Part shown: one piece after another, positions 5,261 through 39,018 of the stretch
How the letters are laid out: each line of letters opens with the position of its first letter
Numbering within the stretch: the first letter of the stretch is position 1
Notes under the pieces: model-generated
The model's input: the letters and a program-made list of their open reading frames with translations, nothing else
Database searches by the model: none
What the model was told of the DNA's origin: nothing
Translations under genes and position numbers: made by a program
Virus record (IMG/VR): IMGVR_UViG_3300007735_000706
Coordinates: 1-39,018 of that record
Strand: one strand, 5' to 3'
Origin: a virus
DNA: 39,018 nt

Positions 5261-5403
5261 TGGCTTTGATTAAGAAGGCTCATAATCATTGGATTGTTCA
5301 ATCGAAGGATGGTTCTAAGACGCTTGGTGTTCATTCGACTAAGCGTGAGGCTCTTGCGCAGCTTGCTGCTGTTGAGATTTCGAAGAAGAAGCGTGGTAAG
5401 TAG
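5260..5403 (+). CDS. Small phage protein of the repeat-insertion type
   Basis: 47 residues, starting in the TGATG overlap with the previous gene. The sequence HWIVQSKDGSKTLGVHSTKR followed by EALAQLAAVE resembles short phage proteins with a beta-hairpin and one helix that commonly sit near portal and capsid genes, with a Lys-rich end. The exact role is unknown. The GTG of the portal gene follows after TAG TA. Confidence 0.7.
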   Translation: MALIKKAHNHWIVQSKDGSKTLGVHSTKREALAQLAAVEISKKKRGK

Positions 5404-8966: not shown

Positions 8967-10136
8967 ATGGCTGATCGTACACCTACAGTGGCTAGTGGTG
9001 CTCGTACTACTGTTGCTGGTATTGTTTCTACTCGCCTGAAGGTCGATATGGGCGACCTGTTCAAGTGGGAATCGCAGGGCGCTGCTCTTTATACGACTGT
9101 TGCGCTGCTTGGTAAGGAGCGTGCTATTGCTAAGACTGTTAGCTGGCATACTTCTGAGCTTCGTCCGAAGTTCGCTCGTATTAATGGTGGTATCACTAAT
9201 GGTCTTACTGATACTACTTTCACTGTTGATAGTCCGATGGGTAACTATGTTAAGCCTGGGTTTTTGATTCAGTTTACTCGTACTGGTGAGACTTGTCTGA
9301 CTACTACTGGTGGTTCTGCTACTACGATTGTTGTTACTGCTCGTTCGTGGGGTGCTACGCCTGCTGCGACGATTGTTGATAATGACGAAATTCTGATTAT
9401 TGGCCCTGCGTATGCTGAGTCGGCTTCGCTTCAGTCTGCTATTAGCGTGACTGAGACGCAGTATTCAAACTATCTGCATACGATGCGTCATAACTGGAAT
9501 GTTGGCGGTCTTCTGATGGAGCTGTCTAAGAATGGTGGGACGTATAACGGTGATGAGGCTGCTCTTCAGCGTAAGGATATTCTTGCTACGCATAAGCGTG
9601 ACATTAACCTTGCGATGCTGTTCTCTGAGGGTGCTACCAGTGGTGGTACTGCTACGATGACGGGTCTGATTCCGTTTATTAATACGAATGCTCCTGGTAA
9701 TGTTAATTCTGCGACTGTTCTGACTGAGCCTGTTTTTGAGGCTGGTAACAAGGTATGGTTCCGTGGTGGTGAGTCGAGTCAGCGTGTGCTGGTTTGTAGC
9801 CGCAACTTCCATGCTATTGCTTCTGGTTTCCCGAAGGCTCAGATTCGAACTTCTACGGGTGATACTAAGTATGGCCTGCGTATGGAGGATTATATTTCAG
9901 CGCATGGTGATGTTAAACTTGTTCGAGAAGTTGCTCTTGAGGGTGATGAGTACGATAAGTATGCGGTTGGATTTGATCCTACTATGGTGAAAATGAAGTA
10001 TGCTCGTGATACTCGTCTGATCAAGGATCGTCAGGGTGTTTCTGAGGATGGCTACGAGGAAGAAGTGCTTACAGATTTCAGTGCGGTGTGGGGCCATGCT
10101 GAGACTTGTTATCTGTGGACTGATGTAGCTGCTTAA
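8967..10136 (+). CDS. Major capsid protein, SU10-like (DUF5309-type)
   Basis: 389 residues. The sequence (KVDMGDLFKWESQGAALYTT at the start, EALQRKDI-like middle with AALQRKDILATHKRDINLAM, and DRQGVSEDGYEEEVLTDFSA with AETCYLWTD at the end) matches my memory of the SU10 major capsid family with the HK97 fold. ATG at 8967 is chosen over an upstream in-frame ATG because GGGG lies just before it and MADRTPTV is a natural start. Codon use shifts here to more C-ending codons (CTG, TTC, GGC, AAC), as expected for the most highly expressed gene. A very strong hairpin follows. Confidence 0.88.
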   Translation: MADRTPTVASGARTTVAGIVSTRLKVDMGDLFKWESQGAALYTTVALLGKERAIAKTVSWHTSELRPKFARINGGITNGLTDTTFTVDSPMGNYVKPGFLIQFTRTGETCLTTTGGSATTIVVTARSWGATPAATIVDNDEILIIGPAYAESASLQSAISVTETQYSNYLHTMRHNWNVGGLLMELSKNGGTYNGDEAALQRKDILATHKRDINLAMLFSEGATSGGTATMTGLIPFINTNAPGNVNSATVLTEPVFEAGNKVWFRGGESSQRVLVCSRNFHAIASGFPKAQIRTSTGDTKYGLRMEDYISAHGDVKLVREVALEGDEYDKYAVGFDPTMVKMKYARDTRLIKDRQGVSEDGYEEEVLTDFSAVWGHAETCYLWTDVAA

Positions 10137-10142
10137 TAAGTT

Positions 10143-10176
10143 GCCGCCCCCCTGCTCCCCAGGTCGGGGGGGCGGC
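10143..10176 (+). terminator. Strong GC hairpin after the major capsid gene
   Basis: GCCGCCCCCC (10143-10152) pairs perfectly with GGGGGGCGGC (10167-10176). There is no T-run after it, so it may be a partial terminator or RNA-stability element that sets capsid mRNA above downstream mRNA rather than a full stop. Confidence 0.7.
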
Positions 10177-10199
10177 ATTCTACCTGGGAGGATAGTGGT

Positions 10200-10790
10200 A
10201 TGGCTAAAGCTAGTGTTAAGCCGAAGAATGGCAAACTTCTTGATAAGGCTCGTGAGCAGGTTAAAGGGAAGTTTGTTTTTGTGAAGTCTCGTCGTGGCGG
10301 GACTATGCCGCTTGAGTGGCCACGTTTTGATCCGAAGTATGATCGTCGTGCGATTGATTTCGAGTTGAAGGATCGTGACGGTAATGTGATTGATCGTGTT
10401 GAGTATCGTAAACTTGAGTTTGGTCACGAGGGTTTGGCTAAGCTGAATCTTGCTGATCCTGATGATGCCGAGTTTTTTGAGGTTGTTAAGGATTGGCATG
10501 AGAATAGTAATGATGCTCGTATTGTGAAGTATCAGGTTGAGATTATTGAGAATGGTAATGTTGAGCCTCCTCCTTTTCCTCGTTATGAGGATATGAAGGC
10601 TAGTGTTGTTGCTGAGATGATCGCTAACTTTATGGGTGAGGATGCTGCTGAGAATGAGGCGTTTCTTTTGAAGTGTGCTCGTTATGAGCTTCAGATGAAG
10701 AATCCGCGTGCTAAGGTACTTGATGCTGTTGAGTATCTTGATGTGGATGCTGGTGATGAGGCTGGTGATGGGATGGTGATTGAGGAGTGA
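10200..10790 (+). CDS. Hypothetical protein downstream of the capsid gene
   Basis: 196 residues with a basic N-terminus (AKASVKPKNGKLLDKAREQV) and an acidic C-terminus (VDAGDEAGDGMVIEE). The middle is mixed alpha/beta; the family is not recognised. GGGAGGAT lies nine bases before the ATG. The position suggests a head-completion or chaperone role. The stop overlaps the next gene by GTGA. Confidence 0.75.
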   Translation: MAKASVKPKNGKLLDKAREQVKGKFVFVKSRRGGTMPLEWPRFDPKYDRRAIDFELKDRDGNVIDRVEYRKLEFGHEGLAKLNLADPDDAEFFEVVKDWHENSNDARIVKYQVEIIENGNVEPPPFPRYEDMKASVVAEMIANFMGEDAAENEAFLLKCARYELQMKNPRAKVLDAVEYLDVDAGDEAGDGMVIEE

Positions 10791-23987: not shown

Positions 23988-26855
23988 ATGGCTAAACTTC
24001 ACTGGTATGATCCAAGGCAGATTGGTAAGAATTTTGTTGAAGAGATTAAGGATCTTCGTGGGATTCCTGGTGGCTTAAAATATACTGGTCAAGCTATCGT
24101 ACATGATATTGGTAAGCCTCTTGGTCTTACTAGTGGGCAGGCTCTTGTTGACGATATTTTTAGGGGCGCGTTTCAAACTATTCAACAAAACTGGTCGCCG
24201 CTTGCTCGCGGTGATTACACACAGTTCGCTAAGAATTTTGCTGCACACCCGCTTACTATGGGCTTGGATGTTGCAACTCTTGCTACGGGTGGTGCTGCTG
24301 GTGCTGGTAAAGCTGCGAGCCTTGCACAAGCAGCGGGTCGTGGTGGCGGGTTAGCAGCAAAACTTGGTAAGTATGAGCTTGCTAGTGCTCCTGTTAGTGC
24401 AAGGCTTGCTGCTGGTGGTATTGTTCCCGGTGCGCGAGCTGGTCGTGGTCGTATAGCCGGACAATATCTTGTTCCCAAAACATATAAGCTGGCTGATGTT
24501 GAGGGGCGTATTGTTGGCCAGGTTCCACTTGCTGCTAATCCGCTTGTTAGGGCAAGACAGGTGGGGCGCGAGAAAGTGTTTGCTGCTGGTGTTCTTGGTG
24601 AAAGATACAAGCCTAGTGCTCGTGGTGCTCGACTAACAACTAAGCAGAGTGAGCGTATTGCTAAGCGCACACGACTACAATTACATGCTGCTGCTCTTGC
24701 AGCGGTTAAGTCTTTAAATAAGAAAGAACGCGAAGCACTCGCGTATGTTGCTGAGGGTTTTGATAGTCCTGAGCGTATTGATGCGCTTCTTAATTATCGC
24801 AAGAATATTCTTGAAGAAATGGCTGCTAAGCGTGTCGAGAATATGCCTGTTGAAGATAGGCACTTGTTACCATCTGCTACTGGTGGTATTAGTGAGGCCG
24901 CTGATCCGTCGGGGCCGAGGGCGTTGTTTGATGCGGCGCTTATTGGTAAGGATGTTAGTCGTATTAATAGTCTTCGTTCTTTGATGGAGAATCCTTCTGT
25001 TCGTATGAATAGGGCGCTTGATGCTCTTAGTGCTGTTGAGCAGCATACTACTGATACGTTGATTAGTATGGGTCGTTTAACTGCTAAGGAAGCTGTTGAT
25101 AGGCGTACTCTTCCTCTTCGTCTTGTTGGTGCTATTCCTGGTGAGGAGCAGCGTCTTATTACTATGTCTCATGTTGCACCAAGACGTATGAGTAAGCGGG
25201 AGCGTCGGGCGCGTAGTCGCGGGTTAACTGTTCCTGTGCTTGATGAGTCTAAGAAGAATATGGGTGTTAATTTTGCTCGCGCTGATTATGCTCGTGATCC
25301 TAGTGTTGTGTTGGATTCGTTTGATCGTGTAACTGGTGCTCATCTTATTGCTCGCCGGTTGGAGTATGCGATGAGTGTTGCTCGTCTTGCTACGAAGGAT
25401 GATTATGCTGCGATTCGTAGTGGCGAGTTAGCTCAGCTTACTAAGGGTGATAAGTCTGCGTTGTTTATGCGTGATATTCAACAGTTTCTTGAGGATGATT
25501 TGAAGCCCAATCTTGCTGATATGAATGATGCGCAGGCTGCTGCTGTTACGGGTGCTGTTAATGAGGCTATTCGTAAACTTGATGAGGCTGGTGAGATGGG
25601 TCTTGTTATGGATCCTGGTGTGTATCGTGAGCTTACTCGCGAGATTCGTGGAGCTAAGAAACTTGTTACTAGGTTGTTGAGTAGTGCTGTTGGTCAGTGG
25701 CGGCAGATTGTTCTTAATCTTAAGGGTAGTTTTTATGTGAACAATTTTCTTGGCAACCTCCTGCTTGGATTGATTGCTAATCCTGCTAGGTTTGTTCCTG
25801 CTCTTGCTACTGAAACTATTGGTGTTGGTAAGAAGTCTAAGCAGATTAAGCAGGCTGTTCCTGATATTCCTAGGCACGCTGGTGGTGTTGCGCTTAACAA
25901 GGAAGCTAGTCGTCTTGCGCGTGTTAAAGGCTTAGAAGTTCTTGGTGATAAGGTAGCTAAACTTCTTGGCCCTGTTACTGACGATAATTTTCGTCGTGCT
26001 AAGTTCCGTATCGAAGCTAATAAACTTGTTAAGGAGCACGCTAAGCGTAACAATATTAGTAAGGGTCAGGCTTGGGAAGAAGTGTTGAATGATGCTCAGG
26101 CTGTTGATCATATTGCACAAAAAATGTATGACGACTTGCTTGACTATACGAAGATGACTGAAGCTGAGCGGTTGTATCTTGTTCCGTTCTACCCGTTTTG
26201 GGCGTTTACTCGTAGTATGACTGGTCGTACTGTTCGTCTTGCTGGTGATGAGCCGTGGAAACTTCAGGCTCTTATGATTTTTGGTGATTATGGTATTCAA
26301 CGCACGGAAGAACAAGTAGGAAAATTACCAGATTTTTTGCGTGGAATTATTTTGCTTGATTCTGATAAGACCATGCCGCTTGCTTTGTCTGCGTATGGTA
26401 TGAACCCGTTTACTGCTCCTGTTGATACTGCTAGTCAGATAACACAATTACTTGGCTTGTCTTCTGGTGAGACGGGTGCAACGAACCCGGTGTCGAGTAT
26501 GAACCCGTTGGTTAAAGCTGGTGCTGAGACGGTGTTTGGTCGTGATGCTTTTTATGGTACTCCGGTTGAGCAGAATCTTGGTGGGTTTATGGGGCAGCTC
26601 GCTAAGAGTAGTCCTCAGTATGTTATGTATCGTAATATGGTTCTTCCTGCGAAGCGTCCTTCGTTTGTGCGTTCGCCTGGTCAGCAATTGTTCTCGTATG
26701 CTGTGAGTCCTGTTGGCGAGTTAAGTGTTCGTAATGTTCGTACTAATCAGGCTATTGCTGATTTTTATAAGCGTAAAGATGTGCAGCAGGCGTTGAAGCG
26801 TAAGATGTCTGAGGAGTCTCGTCGGCGCTCGTTGAGGGAGGCTATTGGTGGCTAA
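23988..26855 (+). CDS. Large internal virion/ejection protein
   Basis: 955 residues, the largest protein here. The N-terminal part has an Ala/Gly-rich hydrophobic stretch (MGLDVATLATGGAAGAGKAA, about 85-110), the middle is helical, and about 575-610 contains QWRQIVLNLKGSFYVNNFLG and LLLGLIANP, a possible membrane-interacting helix. Then comes YLVPFYPFWAFTRSMTGRTV. Size, position and mix of helices with hydrophobic segments suit the protein that crosses the cell envelope during DNA delivery. I see no catalytic motif. It overlaps the hydrolase gene by eight bases. Confidence 0.68.
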   Translation: MAKLHWYDPRQIGKNFVEEIKDLRGIPGGLKYTGQAIVHDIGKPLGLTSGQALVDDIFRGAFQTIQQNWSPLARGDYTQFAKNFAAHPLTMGLDVATLATGGAAGAGKAASLAQAAGRGGGLAAKLGKYELASAPVSARLAAGGIVPGARAGRGRIAGQYLVPKTYKLADVEGRIVGQVPLAANPLVRARQVGREKVFAAGVLGERYKPSARGARLTTKQSERIAKRTRLQLHAAALAAVKSLNKKEREALAYVAEGFDSPERIDALLNYRKNILEEMAAKRVENMPVEDRHLLPSATGGISEAADPSGPRALFDAALIGKDVSRINSLRSLMENPSVRMNRALDALSAVEQHTTDTLISMGRLTAKEAVDRRTLPLRLVGAIPGEEQRLITMSHVAPRRMSKRERRARSRGLTVPVLDESKKNMGVNFARADYARDPSVVLDSFDRVTGAHLIARRLEYAMSVARLATKDDYAAIRSGELAQLTKGDKSALFMRDIQQFLEDDLKPNLADMNDAQAAAVTGAVNEAIRKLDEAGEMGLVMDPGVYRELTREIRGAKKLVTRLLSSAVGQWRQIVLNLKGSFYVNNFLGNLLLGLIANPARFVPALATETIGVGKKSKQIKQAVPDIPRHAGGVALNKEASRLARVKGLEVLGDKVAKLLGPVTDDNFRRAKFRIEANKLVKEHAKRNNISKGQAWEEVLNDAQAVDHIAQKMYDDLLDYTKMTEAERLYLVPFYPFWAFTRSMTGRTVRLAGDEPWKLQALMIFGDYGIQRTEEQVGKLPDFLRGIILLDSDKTMPLALSAYGMNPFTAPVDTASQITQLLGLSSGETGATNPVSSMNPLVKAGAETVFGRDAFYGTPVEQNLGGFMGQLAKSSPQYVMYRNMVLPAKRPSFVRSPGQQLFSYAVSPVGELSVRNVRTNQAIADFYKRKDVQQALKRKMSEESRRRSLREAIGG

Positions 26856-27675
26856 GGGTCGTTCGTATTATGAGGATCTTGCGCGTCGCGCGGCTGTTGC
26901 TAATGGTATTGATCCTGATTTGTTTGCTCGTCAGATAGAAGCAGAGTCGGGTTTTAATCCTAGTGCGCGTAGTGGTGCTGGTGCGCAGGGCATTGCTCAG
27001 ATTATGCCTGCTACTGCGCGTGGTTGGGGTGTGGATCCTAATGATCCGCAAGCTGCTTTGAATGCTGCTGCTCGAGCGATGAGTAAGTATATTGCGAATT
27101 ATGGTGGGTGGCGCAACGCGCTGGTTGCTTATAATGCTGGGCCTGGTCGTGTAGGTAAACCATTATATTCTGAGACTCGTAATTATATTAATCGTATTAT
27201 GGGTGGTCGTAGCGAGCCTGCACCTGCTGGTAGTATGGTTAATTATTCTCAGCCTGTTCGTGATGATTCTGAAGTATTATCATTTATTTTTCAGGGTTCT
27301 CCTCTTGCTGGTTTGATAAGTAGTATGAGTGCTGGTGCTGATCAGCAGGCTCCTGTTTATGAGGCTCCTACTCGTGCTGTTAATGCTCCTAATATAAGTG
27401 TTGATGGTATTCCGTTTCGGCGTGATTATAAGTGGTTGCAACAGGTTGGACAAAAAAAGTTCGGTCTTCGTAATGATCCTGGTACTAGTCAGACTACTGG
27501 TGGTGGGCATACTGCTAATAGTAGGCATTATGCTGGTATGGCTGTTGATTTTGGTTCTGCTCGGAATAGTCGTAGCAAGCTGAATGCGTGGTATAATTGG
27601 GCGCTTGCTAATCGTAATAAGTATGGTTTTAAAGAAGTGCTCGATGAGGGCGATCATATTCATGTAGCGTTCTAG
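26848..27675 (+). CDS. Two-domain virion peptidoglycan hydrolase: SLT transglycosylase + M15-like peptidase
   Basis: 275 residues from GTG at 26848, seven bases after GGGAGG. Residues 20-110 form a lytic transglycosylase domain: catalytic Glu in EAESGFNP (Glu33), GAQGIAQIMP (45-54) and AYNAGPG (94-100). Residues about 190-275 form a LAS/M15-type peptidase: HTANSRHYAGMAVDFG gives His227 and Asp234 as zinc ligands, and DHIHVAF at the end gives the final His pair. Cutting both glycan and peptide bonds fits a virion enzyme that opens the wall for DNA entry, in keeping with the preceding ejection genes. It might also help release. Confidence 0.88.
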   Translation: MAKGRSYYEDLARRAAVANGIDPDLFARQIEAESGFNPSARSGAGAQGIAQIMPATARGWGVDPNDPQAALNAAARAMSKYIANYGGWRNALVAYNAGPGRVGKPLYSETRNYINRIMGGRSEPAPAGSMVNYSQPVRDDSEVLSFIFQGSPLAGLISSMSAGADQQAPVYEAPTRAVNAPNISVDGIPFRRDYKWLQQVGQKKFGLRNDPGTSQTTGGGHTANSRHYAGMAVDFGSARNSRSKLNAWYNWALANRNKYGFKEVLDEGDHIHVAF

Positions 27676-27849: not shown

Positions 27850-28758
27850 ATGATTCGCGGTGCGCTTTGGCGCGACCCGGAATGGCTGGAAGCCAACCTA
27901 GCAAGGCACGGAGGCAGAATCAGAGGATCAGCAGCACGCTTAGCCGCAGAGCTTAATGTTGATTCTACAACGATTACTAAATGGGTGCGACGATTCGAAT
28001 CGCAAGGCGTTATTCATAATAAGCCAGCACCTATACAACTTGTAAGAGATGTTATACGCCTAGAGGGTGATATAGCTCCGTCGAGTGATTGGCATCTTCC
28101 TCTTACACGATACGACTTGTTCGAGAACTGGTTAGAAGCAGCGTATGATGCTAATATAAAAACCGGGGTATGCGCTGGGGATATGGTTAATCTTGATTAT
28201 TGGAGTGACCATTATCCGAAACAAGACGGTTGTAGTGTAGAAGTGGAACAAGAACACGCAGCGTATGCTGTAAGCATGGCTCTTGACGTGTTTGATGAAC
28301 TGGTTATTTGTCTTGGTAATCACGATGAGCGTGCTGTTAAAAAAGTAGGATACTCTACAAGTTTTGATAACGCGATGCGTAGCTTGTTACACAAATTATC
28401 TTCCGATAAGAAGGATCGTATTCGTGTAACTAGCAGGGATTATGTGATTGTTGATACCGATGAAGGCGAGTGGCGTATTTGTCACACTAAGTCGTATAGT
28501 AAGCAGCCACTTGCATACCCGATTAAGATAGCTATGCGACATAATCAGCACGTCGCAGCAGGCCACCGACACCACCTAGCCCAAGGATACGCACCAAACG
28601 GAAAAATGGTAGTAGAACTCGGCGGGTTCTATGATGCGAACGTAACAGAATACTTAGATCGTTACACAAACGATTTTCCAATGTGGCAACCCGGTTGGTG
28701 GCTGCTACAAGATGGTAGAATGAACTGTCCAATGCTATACACACGGGGGAAAGTATGA
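27850..28758 (+). CDS. Metallophosphoesterase with N-terminal helix-turn-helix
   Basis: 302 residues from ATG at 27850, one base after the previous stop; a TTG nine bases earlier is possible. Residues about 20-55 are a helix-turn-helix (GSAARLAAELNVDSTTITKW). The rest is a calcineurin-like phosphoesterase with all main metal motifs: SDWHLP (Asp80, His82), AGDMVN (Asp111), GNHDE (156-160), CHTKS (His212) and AGHRHH (238-242). A DNA-binding head on a phosphoesterase suggests a nuclease or DNA-repair-type enzyme acting at specific sites. Its position inside the lysis block is unexpected. The 3' quarter shifts to A/C-rich codons. Confidence 0.85.
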   Translation: MIRGALWRDPEWLEANLARHGGRIRGSAARLAAELNVDSTTITKWVRRFESQGVIHNKPAPIQLVRDVIRLEGDIAPSSDWHLPLTRYDLFENWLEAAYDANIKTGVCAGDMVNLDYWSDHYPKQDGCSVEVEQEHAAYAVSMALDVFDELVICLGNHDERAVKKVGYSTSFDNAMRSLLHKLSSDKKDRIRVTSRDYVIVDTDEGEWRICHTKSYSKQPLAYPIKIAMRHNQHVAAGHRHHLAQGYAPNGKMVVELGGFYDANVTEYLDRYTNDFPMWQPGWWLLQDGRMNCPMLYTRGKV

Positions 28759-28892
28759 GCAAGAACTTAACACTTGTTGCAGCATTATGCGTAGTAGGCG
28801 CAGTTGTGCTCGCAGCAATGGACAAAGACAGCGTACAAGTCGCAGCACTTATCGGACTCGCAGGCACACTAGCAGGTCGTGGGCGAGCATGA
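28755..28892 (+). CDS. Probable holin
   Basis: 45 residues with two hydrophobic segments, NLTLVAALCVVGAVVLAAM and VQVAALIGLAGTLAG, separated by MDKDS, and a basic end (RGRA). Small two-span proteins just before an endolysin gene are typical holins. It overlaps both neighbours by ATGA, so it is translated with them. Confidence 0.75.
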   Translation: MSKNLTLVAALCVVGAVVLAAMDKDSVQVAALIGLAGTLAGRGRA

Positions 28893-29395
28893 AAAAACCA
28901 AGACTTGTAGTAGACCGCCGTAAAACCGCTAACGTACATGGAACACACAAACCAGTACGAGTCGTGCTTCACTCAACAGAATCACACGACCAAGCAGGAA
29001 TCAATGACGTAGTAGGCGTACTAAAATTTTTAGAAAACACCCCAGACAAACTAGGCATCCACTTTGTCGTAGATAAAGAAGGAAACATTGGACAAGGCGC
29101 AACATGCCTAGCAATCGCATACCATTGCGGAGGACACAATACCGGAAGTATCGGTATTGAAATGATCGGATTCGCACGATTCTCAGCAACACAATGGTAT
29201 AAGCGTCGTAAGCAACTACAAAAAGTAGCAGAACTATTAGCATGGTTGCATACACGATTCGGAATCGAACTACGATACAAGAAGGGCGTATTCTTGCATC
29301 GTAACCTCAGCGGCCCAGGTGGTCATTGGGATCCTGGTTATGGTTTTCCTACACGAAGGGTGCTGCGTTGGGCGCGTCAAATGGCGAAGCACTAA
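28889..29395 (+). CDS. Endolysin: N-acetylmuramoyl-L-alanine amidase (Amidase_2/PGRP fold)
   Basis: 168 residues, single catalytic domain. VVLHSTES gives zinc ligand His28; IGIEM (Glu91) lies in the core strand; LHRNLSGPGGHWDPGYGFP gives His137 and Asp148, the usual second and third ligands. It cuts the bond between muramic acid and the stem peptide at the end of infection. No separate cell-wall-binding domain is visible. ATG at 28889 overlaps the holin stop. The gene is strongly A/C-rich on the coding strand for most of its length. Confidence 0.92.
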   Translation: MKKPRLVVDRRKTANVHGTHKPVRVVLHSTESHDQAGINDVVGVLKFLENTPDKLGIHFVVDKEGNIGQGATCLAIAYHCGGHNTGSIGIEMIGFARFSATQWYKRRKQLQKVAELLAWLHTRFGIELRYKKGVFLHRNLSGPGGHWDPGYGFPTRRVLRWARQMAKH

Positions 29396-32616: not shown

Positions 32617-33953
32617 GCGAGTAGTTGCCTCCACTTGTTTTGTACCAGGTCTGCGATGTCCTGTTTTGATCGAAGACTGGTAGTGATAACACTATCAACC
32701 GTATCGGATGCCACTAGGTGTAAGTATGTTACTTTGCTTGTTTGACCAATACGGTGAATGCGACCACGGGCTTGCTGGTATTCGGCAAGACTCCAACCAG
32801 TTGAATAGAATACTGCCGTGTTAGCAGCGGTAAGTGTGATACCAAGACCGGCGCTTTGTATTTGTGCAACGAATACTCGCACGCTATTATCTGTTTGGAA
32901 TGCTTCTACTGTTTCGCCGCGATCCTTCATCGCGACACTACCATCTATTACTACAGGGTTAAGTTTTAGTGATTCTGCAAGTTGTGTTATTGCTTGTATC
33001 TCGCGCGTGAATCTAGCAAATACAACAATTTTATTTGGCGTGTCACTAAGAATGTCTCGTAGGGTTTCTAGTTTCGCTGTGCTTAATTGGTGGTATTCGT
33101 CGTTGTCGTCTTTAACGAATCCTCCTGTTACTTGTTGTAGGCGCATAATTCTTGTAAGCACATTAGTTGCAACGGCAGCATTATTTTCTGATAAGTATGC
33201 GATGCTTTCTTTTTTTAATTCCTCATAAAACTTGCGTGTCTTAGGCTCAAGTATTACAGGAACATCAACATCAACAAAATCTGGCAGATCAAGAGCTTGT
33301 TCTTTTGTAACAGTATGCGCAATACTATGCGCTTTTTCTGATAAGTCACCAAGCATATCCGCTCGCATACCAGTAACCATACTGCCACCACCAGGAAGCG
33401 GAACAGTGTAAGCATACCTAGCTTTAAACGCGGTAAATGACGAACCAAAAATATTAGGATCAAGGAACTGGTAGATACCAAACAAGTCGAGTGCAAGATT
33501 AGCAACCGGCGTACCAGTCATAGCGAGACGATACTTAGCCTGCTTACCAATCTTATAAATAGCTTTTGATTGTTTAGCAGTATGATTCTTAACACGATGA
33601 GCCTCGTCAAGAATTACCAAATCAGGCTTAAACTCTTTCAACAACACATCTTGTATAGGCTTACTACGACCAATCGCCTCATAATTAATCACCACGACCT
33701 GCAAGCGTGGATCGTCCTTAAAAAGCCTACGAATAGTTTCTACTCGCCTCGCAGCGGTACCTTGTGCGGGAACAACAACACACTCAACAATCCCCCACTT
33801 TGCAATCTCAGCAGGCCATACAGGAACAACACTTACCGGAGCAACCACAAGCACACGACGAATAAATTGTTGGTTAAATAATTCGCCCATGATAGCTGTA
33901 GCTGTAAGTGTCTTGCCACAACCAACATCGTGATACAACGCGAAGCTGTTCAC
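32613..33953 (-). CDS. SNF2-family DNA helicase/translocase core
   Basis: 446 residues from GTG at 33953. Walker A is DVGCGKT (9-15), motif II is DEAH (116-119), motif III AMTGTP, and the second RecA-like domain has QSAGLGITLTAAN and QARGRIHRIGQT. The protein starts directly at Walker A and lacks the usual N-terminal Q-motif region, which is encoded just upstream in another frame. The genes meet at GTGA, the same overlap used by many pairs in this genome. The role is probably DNA remodelling during replication or recombination. The codon style differs between its two halves. Confidence 0.88.
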   Translation of the reverse strand: MNSFALYHDVGCGKTLTATAIMGELFNQQFIRRVLVVAPVSVVPVWPAEIAKWGIVECVVVPAQGTAARRVETIRRLFKDDPRLQVVVINYEAIGRSKPIQDVLLKEFKPDLVILDEAHRVKNHTAKQSKAIYKIGKQAKYRLAMTGTPVANLALDLFGIYQFLDPNIFGSSFTAFKARYAYTVPLPGGGSMVTGMRADMLGDLSEKAHSIAHTVTKEQALDLPDFVDVDVPVILEPKTRKFYEELKKESIAYLSENNAAVATNVLTRIMRLQQVTGGFVKDDNDEYHQLSTAKLETLRDILSDTPNKIVVFARFTREIQAITQLAESLKLNPVVIDGSVAMKDRGETVEAFQTDNSVRVFVAQIQSAGLGITLTAANTAVFYSTGWSLAEYQQARGRIHRIGQTSKVTYLHLVASDTVDSVITTSLRSKQDIADLVQNKWRQLLA

Positions 33954-34300
33954 GGAATCATAACTCCATACAATTTCATACACATACTAAACGCCTGTTT
34001 CTGATGCTGATACGGCGTACCATTAACCGGAAGAATCGCATCACTCAACGATTCGCGAGCAACACTAGCACTACTAATAATCGCTTCGTTACGTGCAACA
34101 TACTCAAAAATATCCGCACTAACATCAGCATCAGGAAAGCGTTGCAAAATAAACGCAAGACACTCCCTGGTTGCAGGAACACAATACTCGCGACGCGACC
34201 TATCATACAAACGACTCGGAGCTTGAGAAAGAATCAAACTATCCTTCACCACGCCGTCAGCTAAATAAATCTTATCAGTATCTAAATAGAACCTACTCAC
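33950..34300 (-). CDS. N-terminal segment of the SNF2 helicase as a separate gene
   Basis: 116 residues from GTG at 34300, five bases after a perfect GGAGG. The C-terminal end, NGTPYQHQKQAFSMCMKLYG, is the Q-motif region that normally precedes Walker A in SNF2 helicases; the stop follows four residues later. The helicase core resumes in the -1 frame. It may be a truly split helicase joined by reinitiation, a programmed frameshift, a mutation or an assembly error. No classical slippery heptamer is visible near the junction. Confidence 0.8.
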   Translation of the reverse strand: MSRFYLDTDKIYLADGVVKDSLILSQAPSRLYDRSRREYCVPATRECLAFILQRFPDADVSADIFEYVARNEAIISSASVARESLSDAILPVNGTPYQHQKQAFSMCMKLYGVMIP

Positions 34301-34353: not shown

Positions 34354-34400
34354 ATCAATCACACACACCCCACAATTTTCGAGTAGCAGAATCATACAGA

Positions 34401-34413
34401 TATAATCATCGGA
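34401..34413 (+). promoter_or_regulatory. Leaderless promoter of the secreted lysozyme gene
   Basis: A perfect TATAAT at 34401-34406 ends six bases before the ATG at 34413, so transcription would begin at or next to the start codon. No ribosome-binding site precedes the ATG. Leaderless messages are common in actinobacteria. The -35 region (TTTCGA, 18 bases upstream) is weak. Confidence 0.6.
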
Positions 34414-34802
34414 TGACAAGTTACACAAAAAACACAACACTCCTGCTCGGCATCCTAATGCTCCTACTCGCATGGCCAGAAGCGTCACAAGCAAAAACAC
34501 CACCACGCTTGCATAGAGCAGCGAACCAATCACACCCACCAAAACAAAAAAGCGTAGCGAAACGGGCGTGGATTATTTGCCAAATATTTCCACACAACGT
34601 ATGCCACCAAGCAATCAACGTAGCATACTGCGAATCGCGCCTAGATACTCGCGCACGTAACGGACAATACTTAGGCATGTTCCAAATGGGGCGCTCCGAA
34701 CGCAGACAATACGGGCATAGTAGTAGCGCATGGAAGCAAACCAGAGCAGCATACTTGTACTACAAAAAATCTGGTTGGTTGCCTTGGGCGTGCAAACCGT
34801 GA
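34413..34802 (+). CDS. Secreted Rpf-like/SLT lysozyme, probable moron
   Basis: 129 residues. A signal peptide is clear: KNTT, hydrophobic LLLGILMLLLAW, and a likely cut after ASQA. The mature part is a small lysozyme-fold domain: VAYCESRLDTRARNGQYLGM (catalytic Glu in CES), FQMGRSERRQYG, and the end SGWLPWACKP, matching the CES...GWxxWxC plan of resuscitation-promoting factors and relatives, whose two cysteines form a disulfide. An extra pair, CQIFPHNVC, lies before it. The gene stands alone between divergent blocks with its own promoter and terminator, as lysogenic-conversion genes (morons) do. It would act outside the cell, on the wall, and is separate from the lysis genes. Confidence 0.82.
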   Translation: MTSYTKNTTLLLGILMLLLAWPEASQAKTPPRLHRAANQSHPPKQKSVAKRAWIICQIFPHNVCHQAINVAYCESRLDTRARNGQYLGMFQMGRSERRQYGHSSSAWKQTRAAYLYYKKSGWLPWACKP

Positions 34803-34858
34803 TACACTCCCCGCTACCTACATAAGCGCCATTATGGTGCGCCACATACACCTACACC

Positions 34859-34899
34859 GACCGCCCCCTGCACACACCACAAGGGGGCGGTCATTTTTT
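34859..34899 (+). terminator. Rho-independent terminator after the secreted lysozyme
   Basis: GACCGCCCCC (34859-34868) pairs with GGGGGCGGTC (34883-34892), followed by A and six T. It is a textbook intrinsic terminator. The -35 of the next promoter begins three bases later, so the lysozyme gene is transcriptionally insulated. Confidence 0.93.
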
Positions 34900-34901
34900 G
34901 T

Positions 34902-34962: not shown

Positions 34963-36885
34963 GTGGAAACACCACTACAAATCGCGCGACTCGGCCTACC
35001 CATCCTTAGATTAGAAGGAAAAATCCCACTACCAGGCACTCGTGGAAGCCACGACGCAACCACCCACCAAGACCAAATCGGCTTATGGATGGCCGAACAC
35101 CATGATAACTGGGGCATCGCAACAGGACACCCACTCACCCCTACCACACTTCTTACCGTTATTGATGTAGACACCAAACACAACGGCCACCACAGTTTAG
35201 AACAATTACAAACACTACTAGGACTATTACCACCCACACTTACCATACGCACCGGAACCGGCGGCACCCACCACTATTACCAAACACCGAACCATACGAC
35301 AATTAAAAACAGTGCAAACAAAATAGCACCAGGAATAGACATCAGAGGACGCGGCGGGTACGTTGTAGCCCCTGGAAGTATTCACCCTGATACTGGTAAT
35401 CCGTATGTAGTTATAAAAGACTATCCAATAGCAGAACTACCCGCAAAATGGGTGGATCATATACATAGTCTTGATAATACTCCTAGTAGTGTTCTTGAAG
35501 AACACGAAGAAATAGCAGAAGGTAGTCGTGACCGTAGCCTATTCGAGTATGCTTGCAGGCTTCGTAGTAGTGGAGCGAACCCGGAAGAAATACTTACCGC
35601 ACTTACCGCTCGTAACCTAAAACGAGTTAAGCCACCACTACCACAAAATGATATTAGTCGCATCGCTAAACAAGCATCAAAATATCCGATAGGTGAACGC
35701 CTCACAACCATTATCGCTGATATTGCTGAGCAACACGGAATAGTAAGTATCAGCAATAACGAAGAACACATTATCAGTAAAGAGGAACACGCTGATAAGC
35801 AGGCAAAAAAGCTAGTACGAAGTCTACGGGAATGGTTCGCATCCGACGACCCCGAAACACCCTATCTGGTACCAGGGTTCCTTGTTCATGGCGGGCTGGG
35901 AATTATTGCCGGGGAACCCAAGACGGGTAAAAGCTGGCTTGTGTACCATCTTATGTTGTGTGTAGCTGCTGGGATCAGTATGCCACCATACGATTATGAG
36001 CCGTGTGATCCTAAAAAAGTTTTGTTGATAGCTAACGAAGGTAGCCAGGCGGGGATGAAGCATCGTATAGCTGCGCTCGCTAACGGACTAGGTATAAGCA
36101 TAAATGATGTTGCCGACAATATCGCTGTTATCGCCGGACACGATTTTACTGTTGACAGTGTAGAGAATACTGCTCTTCTTCAGCACGCTTCGAATACGTG
36201 TGACTTGATTATTGTCGATACGTTGTCGAATGCGTGGTACGGCAAGGAAGATTCAAACGACGAAATGAAACAACTCATTGGCCGCATAAGGCCAATTATT
36301 AATAATGGTACAACAGTGCTACTAGTACACCATTTAGCTAAACCATCACAAGACTCAAAAAGCAGACGACCCGGCCTACGAATGCGAGGAGCATCAGCCC
36401 TCTACGGAGCAACAGACAGCGGCATATACCTCACCAGAGAACCAAACGACACCGTAACTAGCGTCGAAACAGAACAAAAAGACACCGCACCAGCACCATC
36501 ATTCACATTCTCATGGCCAGAAACAACCATCACCGCACTAGACACAGTAACACTAAACACAATGAAAGAACACGACGAAATGAACCCTAAAAACATGATG
36601 TACGTAGCCAAAACAGTAAAAGAAGCAGTCGAAAAAGCCATCAAAGACAGCCCCGAAGGACTAGCCCGCAAACAACTCACAACACACGTTCACGGAACCA
36701 ACAGAAGAATCATCGAAATAGCAGACCAAAAAGTAGCCGACGGCATCTGGGAATACGTCAAAATCACACGCACAAATACCAACGGAAACCAGTACGATGT
36801 ATGGGTCTACAGAGAAGCACAACCAGAACAATATTTAACAACCATGCGCAACATGCTAGGGGAAGATCAGGTTATGATCACGTAG
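34963..36885 (+). CDS. Primase-polymerase/helicase fusion (replication protein)
   Basis: 640 residues from GTG at 34963, with AAGGGA upstream. Residues 1-165 are a bifunctional primase-polymerase domain: VIDVD (Asp68, Asp70), GTGGTHHYY (His about 103), GIDIRGRGGYVVAPGS. About 185-245 is a PriCT-like helical linker. About 280-520 is a RecA-like ATPase with Walker A GEPKTGKS (about 316), Walker B LIIVDT, and LLVHH. The C-terminus is winged-helix-like. It would prime and unwind phage DNA; no separate DNA polymerase gene was found. Codon style changes twice inside the gene, near 35,440 and 36,240. Confidence 0.9.
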   Translation: METPLQIARLGLPILRLEGKIPLPGTRGSHDATTHQDQIGLWMAEHHDNWGIATGHPLTPTTLLTVIDVDTKHNGHHSLEQLQTLLGLLPPTLTIRTGTGGTHHYYQTPNHTTIKNSANKIAPGIDIRGRGGYVVAPGSIHPDTGNPYVVIKDYPIAELPAKWVDHIHSLDNTPSSVLEEHEEIAEGSRDRSLFEYACRLRSSGANPEEILTALTARNLKRVKPPLPQNDISRIAKQASKYPIGERLTTIIADIAEQHGIVSISNNEEHIISKEEHADKQAKKLVRSLREWFASDDPETPYLVPGFLVHGGLGIIAGEPKTGKSWLVYHLMLCVAAGISMPPYDYEPCDPKKVLLIANEGSQAGMKHRIAALANGLGISINDVADNIAVIAGHDFTVDSVENTALLQHASNTCDLIIVDTLSNAWYGKEDSNDEMKQLIGRIRPIINNGTTVLLVHHLAKPSQDSKSRRPGLRMRGASALYGATDSGIYLTREPNDTVTSVETEQKDTAPAPSFTFSWPETTITALDTVTLNTMKEHDEMNPKNMMYVAKTVKEAVEKAIKDSPEGLARKQLTTHVHGTNRRIIEIADQKVADGIWEYVKITRTNTNGNQYDVWVYREAQPEQYLTTMRNMLGEDQVMIT

Positions 36886-38350: not shown

Positions 38351-38941
38351 TTACTGATTATACCGCAAAACCCGGCGAACCATGCCTATGCTTACGTTTG
38401 TTGATTCGGCGTTGTCTTTGAGACTCATGCCTGTCTGGTAGTTTCGTATGATGGTGCGCTTGGTTGTTGTTGGTAGTGGTTGGGGCGGCCTGCCGAGTGG
38501 TAGGCCGTTTCTTTTTCTTTGTGCTAGTCCTTCGCGTGTTCTTTGCACTATCATTTCTCGCTCATATTGGCCTACAGCGGCCAAGACGTGCGCCATCATT
38601 CGGCCTGCTGGTGAAGACATGTCAAGGTTGTCTCCGATACTGATGAGACTTTTGTCCTCACGTTCTAATAGTTCTATGTAGTTACAGAACTGTTGTACGC
38701 TACGAACTAGGCGGTCGAGTCTGATGATGATTAGTCCGTCTGCTTGGTTGAGTGCGTCGAGTGCTTGGTCGAGTATTGGCCTCACGGTTGCCGCACCACT
38801 AGCTTGTTCTTTGAATACTTGTATGACCGTATGGTTATTGCGTTGTGTGTAGTCTTGTATCAAGTGTTCTTGTGCGTCGAGGCTGTACCCGGTGTCGGCT
38901 TGTTCGATTGTGCTAACGCGGCAGTACGCGATCAGGTTCAT
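38351..38941 (-). CDS. Serine recombinase (resolvase/invertase family)
   Basis: 196 residues from ATG at 38941, with AGGA six bases upstream. AYCRVSTIEQ carries the catalytic Ser10 and Arg8; GYSLDAQ follows; IIRLDRLVRS holds the conserved arginines; then MMAHVLAAVGQYEREMIVQR is the dimerising helix. GLPLGRPP links to a short helix-turn-helix (SLKDNAESTNVSIGMVRRVL). The length matches resolvase/invertase enzymes, not large integrases. It could resolve genome multimers, invert a segment or, less likely, integrate the phage. It is last in the helix-turn-helix/pentapeptide cassette. Confidence 0.92.
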   Translation of the reverse strand: MNLIAYCRVSTIEQADTGYSLDAQEHLIQDYTQRNNHTVIQVFKEQASGAATVRPILDQALDALNQADGLIIIRLDRLVRSVQQFCNYIELLEREDKSLISIGDNLDMSSPAGRMMAHVLAAVGQYEREMIVQRTREGLAQRKRNGLPLGRPPQPLPTTTKRTIIRNYQTGMSLKDNAESTNVSIGMVRRVLRYNQ

Positions 38942-38942
38942 G

Positions 38943-39018
38943 TTATTCCTGCCAGTCTGGTTCGCCAATGTATGGTGCGAGTTGCTTGCGTGATACTTTG
39001 GCACCGCGCAGGTAGGCA
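38943..39018 (-). CDS. Pentapeptide-repeat protein, C-terminal part (continued from 1-410)
   Basis: This is the tail of the gene that begins at 410. It supplies the last pentapeptide (AYLRG) and a non-repeat end, AKVSRKQLAPYIGEPDWQE, followed by TAA. The codon that spans the edge reads GGT and fits the repeat exactly. The stop codon lies one base before the ATG of the serine recombinase, so the two genes are almost certainly on one message. Confidence 0.9.
   Translation of the reverse strand, partial: AYLRGAKVSRKQLAPYIGEPDWQE

Follow-up and report, generated by a model that had tools for sequence, protein, structure and literature searches.

A Stand-Alone Gene for a Predicted Secreted, Rpf-Like Lysozyme-Fold Protein in a Small Uncultured Phage

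A small gene standing alone between two divergent gene blocks of an uncultured phage raises the question of what use a phage would have for an exported wall enzyme that is placed apart from its lysis genes. The window, i.e., the whole stretch of DNA analysed, was the viral record IMGVR_UViG_3300007735_000706 of 39,018 bases, a small genome with 46% G+C. Both ends of the record lie inside a single 15-bp repeat array and the contig of a sister phage is continuous across the same junction; therefore, the record is very probably a complete, circularly permuted genome. The array occupies positions 1-292 and 38997-39018 of the window (read on the - strand, 19.5 copies) and adjoins a serine recombinase; the array of the sister contains 14 copies (10036-10247 of locus L074). 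As one reverse frame of the array reads A(N/D)LRG, it is probably a pentapeptide-repeat protein gene lying across the contig junction, where the assembly broke. The structural genes run rightward from about 2.9 to 29.6 kb. An SNF2-type helicase belongs to the next block, which runs leftward (29.7-34.3 kb), and the replication genes beyond it again point rightward; the lysozyme-like gene is found between these last two blocks. Rfam and tRNA scans of the whole window returned nothing. The features of the locus and of the recombinase region are as follows.

33950..34300, - strand: divergent upstream gene, 116 aa; its GTG at 34300 is Shine-Dalgarno (SD)-led; first gene of the leftward operon with the SNF2-type helicase
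34401..34406, + strand: TATAAT, -10 element of the predicted leaderless promoter, in the same register in the sister
34413..34802, + strand: predicted secreted lysozyme-like (Rpf/SLT_3-related) protein, 129 aa (43-row alignment, AF2 model, fold matches)
34413..34493, + strand: predicted signal peptide, residues 1-27 (MTSYTKNTTLLLGILMLLLAWPEASQA); hydropathy scan with controls, relaxed dN/dS over residues 1-45
34548..34799, + strand: predicted lysozyme-like domain, residues 46-129 (VIA-align fold matches, hhalign to Rpf)
34629..34637, + strand: CES motif (Cys73, Glu74, Ser75), residues 73-75, with the predicted catalytic Glu; aligns with the CES of Rpf
34773..34793, + strand: GWLPWAC end, residues 121-127; W125 and C127 invariant
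34859..34899, + strand: predicted intrinsic terminator, 11-bp perfect stem, 12-nt loop, T6; hairpin -25.3 kcal/mol
34963..36885, + strand: Prim-Pol/PriCT/AAA primase-helicase, opening the replication block; SD-led, AAGG before the start at 34963; sister orthologue 79% identical
38351-39004, - strand: small recombinase of the serine family (DNA-invertase type), next to the HTH protein below
415-570, - strand: small HTH protein; its sister orthologue (L074 10309-10626) weakly resembles excisionases

The best 10-residue mean hydropathy of the N-terminal stretch was 3.26, against 0.06-2.01 in 17 control proteins of the window, and the stretch ended in a sequence of the A-x-A type (EASQA followed by KT). 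A hydrophobic N-terminus (1.8 or more) was found in 42 of 47 relatives, for some of which the start codon was picked by the hydropathy scan. The signal peptide of the original prediction is thus upheld as a predicted one of the Sec type, and the CES motif and the GWxxWxC end that it named are both present. The 43-row family alignment contained thirteen invariant columns, and C73, E74, G84, Y86, G88, F90, Q91, W125, and C127 were conserved in all 43 relatives. Cys127 is predicted to pair with Cys73 in a disulfide, as in the Rpf structures, and Glu74 would be the catalytic acid. The mature protein is cationic (pI about 10.4) and has a single domain. With its predicted signal peptide, modelled lysozyme fold, and catalytic-type Glu, the product is consistent with the exported muralytic-type enzyme that had been proposed.

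The AF2 model had a pLDDT of 88.9, with about 92-97 per ten-residue block over residues 51-120, and a lysozyme-like fold is predicted. The top Foldseek matches of the model were RpfE, RpfB, and RpfC (probability 0.99-1.00, with 1.00 for RpfE; E 0.06-0.2). VIA-align gave a Z of 9.3 with the c-type lysozyme 2fbd (84 residues, 1.9 A), 9.1 with MltF, and 7.6 with RpfE (rmsd 1.8 A, 64 of 71 residues). In profile comparisons, the family aligned with Rpf at P 1.7e-10 (hhalign, prob 96.9, Rpf columns 9-71 of 76) and with SLT_3 at P 2e-6, and the comparison with classical SLT was not significant (P 0.027). Within the lysozyme superfamily, the profiles place the family between Rpf and SLT_3, closest to Rpf, next to SLT_3, and not to classical SLT. 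The Pfam cut-off is 27 bits for both Rpf (PF06737) and SLT_3 (PF18896), and the window protein matched neither. Among the relatives shown, about 16 bits were reached with PF06737 (best E 0.00049 of 43 members). The sister protein scored 14.2 bits with SLT_3, below the cut-off, and two relatives exceeded it over nearly the whole profile (L067, 29.8 bits; L036, 27.6 bits). As the window protein passes no Pfam cut-off, it is filed neither as Rpf nor as SLT_3. The earlier name Rpf-like is fair on these profiles, Rpf being the nearest family and among the nearest folds, but PF06737 does not recognise the protein and the name "an Rpf" would not be correct.

The window protein had no match in Pfam, PHROG, or PDB and only sub-threshold noise in NCBIfam, and tblastn of this protein and of one relative against 50,697 phage records gave no match. 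Scans with the protein, and then with its alignments, returned 13 and then 52 viral loci. The family, which is uncharacterised, was located in at least 53 contigs of viruses, and some chromosomes of actinobacteria also encode members; the relatives were located by peptide patterns, so that the counts are lower bounds. Its core reads C-E-S/T ... A-x-N-G-Q-Y-x-G-x-F-Q-M-G ... R ... Y-G-H ... Q-x-x-A-A ... Y ... G-x-x-W-x-P-W-x-C. Family matches were present in 15 of the 396 Actinomycetota genomes, and seven actinobacterial MAG loci, several titled Thermoleophilia, contained a member. At least one chromosomal member lies in a 2.6-Mb contig and adjoins a glutamyl-type tRNA synthetase and a MaoC gene. 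Two adjacent, distant family members in tandem were seen in actinobacterial loci (L097, L099, and L096; genomes G042 and G380). A search with the major capsid protein of the phage found one relative, 30% identical, in the actinobacterial MAG G389, and the 34 further genomes from the order of that MAG contained none; the terminase and the primase led only to distant phages, whose hosts were mixed. Judging from the distribution of the family and the relatives of the replication genes, the host is likely to be an actinobacterium.

The gene also appears to have its own start and stop signals. The TATAAT ends exactly six bases before the ATG at 34413, as the original prediction had stated, and the arrangement TATAAT-N6-NTG occurs only once in the whole window, both strands included. 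TANNNT at the six-base distance was absent from all 27 further start codons examined, most of which were preceded by a purine-rich SD-like word that the start at 34413 lacks. No -35 match was found upstream of the TATAAT (TTCGAG at 17 nt). Promoters of M. tuberculosis contain TANNNT without a conserved -35 (PMC3898074), and in bacterial leaderless genes a TANNNT precedes the start codon by about 12 bp (PMC3160421). Here the first T of TATAAT is 12 bp from the start codon, which matches that distance, and together with the ATG start and the lack of an SD it gives the gene the features of a leaderless gene. The terminator arms (34859-34869 and 34882-34892) are 11 nt each and 100% complementary, followed by an A and by T6 at 34894-34899; the automatic scan did not list this hairpin since its loop limit was 8 and the loop here is 12 nt. 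Transcription would thus begin at the leaderless promoter, translation would proceed without a leader, and transcription would end at the hairpin. The claims of a leaderless promoter and of a perfect terminator hold at this level, and both have counterparts in the sister. A leaderless layout throughout the family was ruled out, as the start is preceded by a GGAGG-type SD in most relatives; the layout therefore belongs to the phage pair and not to the family. A consensus-like promoter candidate on the opposite strand (34391-34419, -; TTGTCA-17-TATGAT) was rejected, as the number of such sites equalled the shuffled expectation and the site was not present in the sister.

Scans with the primase and the capsid for further phage relatives returned only one sister contig, IMGVR_UViG_3300032332_000938 in IMG/VR (capsid 97% and primase 79% identical). 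Its orthologue is found at the same place (L074 5375-5764), with 54% identity overall and 65% in the domain. The sister has TATGCT at 5363-5368 before the ATG at 5375, in the same six-base register and with no SD. The density of TANNNT is 0.010-0.017 per position, so that the shared register is unlikely to have arisen by chance (about 1-2%). The terminator of the sister is a different 12-bp stem (L074 5829-5860), unrelated in sequence to that of the window, and the upstream DNA is otherwise much changed. In one pairwise estimate between the two phages, residues 46-129 gave a dN of 0.30, a dS of 0.95, and a dN/dS of about 0.3, i.e., purifying selection; in residues 1-45 the dN/dS was relaxed, as expected of a signal peptide and linker. 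The conserved place, spacing, and SD absence, the terminator kept in an unrelated sequence, and the dN/dS of the domain argue that the gene and its independent layout are maintained by selection. In the sister, the leader of the primase (L074 5911-5992) contained nested inverted and direct repeats (TCAGGGGGATCC..., GGGCAGGCACA twice), which the window lacks; this nest is possibly an operator or origin element.

The original prediction had also separated the enzyme from the lysis genes, and the lysis cassette is indeed found elsewhere, 5.5 kb away.

26845..27675, + strand: SLT and M15-like protein of the structural module (PF01464, 9.5e-22; internal virion protein PHROGs)
28755..28892, + strand: holin-like hydrophobic ORF, 45 aa, two-helix; overlaps the endolysin start (ATGA); only weakly matched by a PHROG of unknown function
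28889..29395, + strand: main endolysin, Amidase_2 (PF01510, 5.2e-19); listed ORF start 28787, likely start MKKPRL at 28889

The 45-aa ORF is probably an unannotated holin. The SLT protein, which follows a 955-aa internal virion-type protein, contains an SLT transglycosylase domain and a weak M15/VanY-like peptidase domain; it is probably a wall-penetration lysin of the virion, distinct from the secreted lysozyme-like protein.

The role of such an enzyme can be approached through Tgl of the Kayvirus phages, whose signal peptide directs its export and whose core domain is of the Rpf type; Tgl destroys the wall, and the host RNA polymerase transcribes its gene from a host-type promoter (PMC7150955). 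In S. aureus, Tgl lyses cells only once the membrane potential (pmf) is lost, and LysK, its proposed partner, carries an Amidase_2 domain (PMC7150955). A secreted phage enzyme with an early promoter and an Rpf motif can therefore be an accessory lysin (PMC7150955). By analogy, the window protein may well be an exported wall-cutting enzyme made from a stand-alone early unit and working with the phage's own lysis enzyme, the reading that we tentatively prefer. The host RNA polymerase would transcribe the gene from its leaderless promoter early in infection, ahead of the late genes or separately from them, and the terminator would insulate the unit. Sec would export the cationic single-domain muralytic enzyme, the Cys73-Cys127 disulfide would close the small domain, and Glu74 would act as the catalytic acid. 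The enzyme would collect in the wall, cut glycan strands there, and cooperate at lysis with the late holin-like/Amidase_2 cassette, as proposed for Tgl with LysK. Since the phage has an Amidase_2 endolysin and a holin-like ORF elsewhere, a partner that cuts glycan would add a second bond. Against the accessory-lysin reading, the gene lies between replication modules and far from the lysis cassette, and its relatives adjoin DNA polymerase, helicase, Sak4, or terminase genes, with an endolysin near the family member only in L008 among the relatives examined. The distance from the cassette and the replication-side location leave room for host-modifying roles, and the chromosomal members in actinobacterial genomes without a phage indicate that enzymes of this type are not confined to lysis.

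One such role would be that of a wall-remodelling or growth-state factor, in which the Rpf-like enzyme keeps the infected or a neighbouring actinobacterial cell growing or rouses dormant cells, so that the burst or the later supply of hosts increases. In its favour, no family is closer by profile than Rpf, with which the CES...WxxC frame is shared, the promoter is predicted to be early or independent, and leaderless mRNAs increase under starvation in M. tuberculosis (PMC3898074); still, the protein has no Pfam Rpf match, nothing indicates that dormant hosts are encountered by the phage, and Rpf enzymes act on walls in general, so that the similarity does not specify resuscitation. We consider this role unlikely. 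Its fuller form, in which a leaderless promoter favouring slow or starved cells drives an exported Rpf-type enzyme, actinobacterial host cells (whether infected or neighbouring) are stimulated to grow or roused from dormancy, and more phage results, draws on family resemblance and would be very unlikely.

The original prediction called the layout that of a moron. A classical moron is a gene picked up outside the phage programme, which the prophage expresses to the benefit of the lysogen. The part of that claim that stood is the layout, as a promoter and a terminator of its own are recognised in the sequence. Chromosomal relatives in actinobacteria, one of them next to tRNA-synthetase and MaoC genes, and, in the phage, the serine recombinase and the HTH protein with its weak resemblance to excisionases point the same way, and on the latter two lysogeny is possible, though uncertain. 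However, the only close relative known has the gene at the same place, and no insertion, and no phage lacking the gene with its flanks joined, was found; no repressor was recognised, and the recombinase is of the invertase type (phrog_125). A classical moron is thus improbable, and the label fits weakly. An exclusion function, in which the enzyme trims the surface or wall and so blocks adsorption or injection by further phages, or harms neighbouring cells, would suit a stand-alone early-type unit adjoining replication genes, a small, cationic, secreted product (by prediction), and a gene position that varies among the relatives too; such proteins are usually membrane-held, and we regard this function as distinctly improbable. 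It is also conceivable that the lysozyme fold was kept for binding only, as the non-enzymatic alpha-lactalbumin is among the listed structural neighbours, or that the gene is expressed by read-through only. Glu74 and the NGQY-GLFQ active-site frame are, however, invariant in 43 members, and the gene has a predicted promoter and terminator of its own, which makes this last alternative highly unlikely.

The gene belongs to a family of small lysozyme-like phage proteins, predicted to be secreted, that is widespread and as yet without a name; by profile the family falls between Rpf and SLT_3, and its window member is missed by Pfam, PHROGs, and NCBIfam alike. It offers a test case for whether phage Rpf-like enzymes serve lysis only or also alter the state of the host cell. 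The leaderless, terminator-closed unit kept in two phages would be a clean example of the independent control of an exported phage enzyme.

In comparison with known systems, Rpf (PF06737) shares with the window protein the lysozyme-like fold, the CES motif, the NGxYxG...Q frame, the C-terminal WxxC, the secretion (predicted here), and a domain size of about 75-80 aa. The window protein differs in lying below Pfam detection, in having no accessory domains, and in containing NGQYLGLFQMG and YGHG motifs instead of GGLQF; in most family members, the N-terminus adds one more helix, which carries a second pair of Cys (C56/C64). SLT_3 (PF18896) has the W.PW end in common with the family, whereas neither the CES Cys nor the terminal Cys is present in the SLT_3 sequences examined, which occur in larger proteins (open frames of 317-1248 aa). 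In the literature searched, no paper on the function of SLT_3 or on a phage-encoded Rpf was found. Classical SLT or GH23-type lytic transglycosylases (PF01464) share the fold class and the ES...GL.Q active-site pattern but lack the disulfide frame; this applies also to the phage's own virion SLT protein, which, unlike the lysozyme-like product, has no signal peptide. Tgl of the Staphylococcus phages is likewise a small single enzyme with a signal peptide, an Rpf-type lysozyme-like core, and a conserved Glu, features that the window protein has by prediction. Tgl has its own promoter of the host housekeeping type, apart from the late amidase-containing endolysin; here such a promoter is predicted from a -10 element in a conserved register, with no -35. 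Tgl is 230 aa long with an IsaA/SceD-like wall-binding part, whereas the 129-aa window protein has only a short basic linker; its gene is three genes from lysK in a Firmicutes phage, whereas the window gene is leaderless and distant from the amidase. The kind is nevertheless already known: the best precedent is Tgl, an accessory lysin that is secreted and transcribed from a host-type promoter of its own, and given this precedent the accessory-lysin reading is the simpler one.
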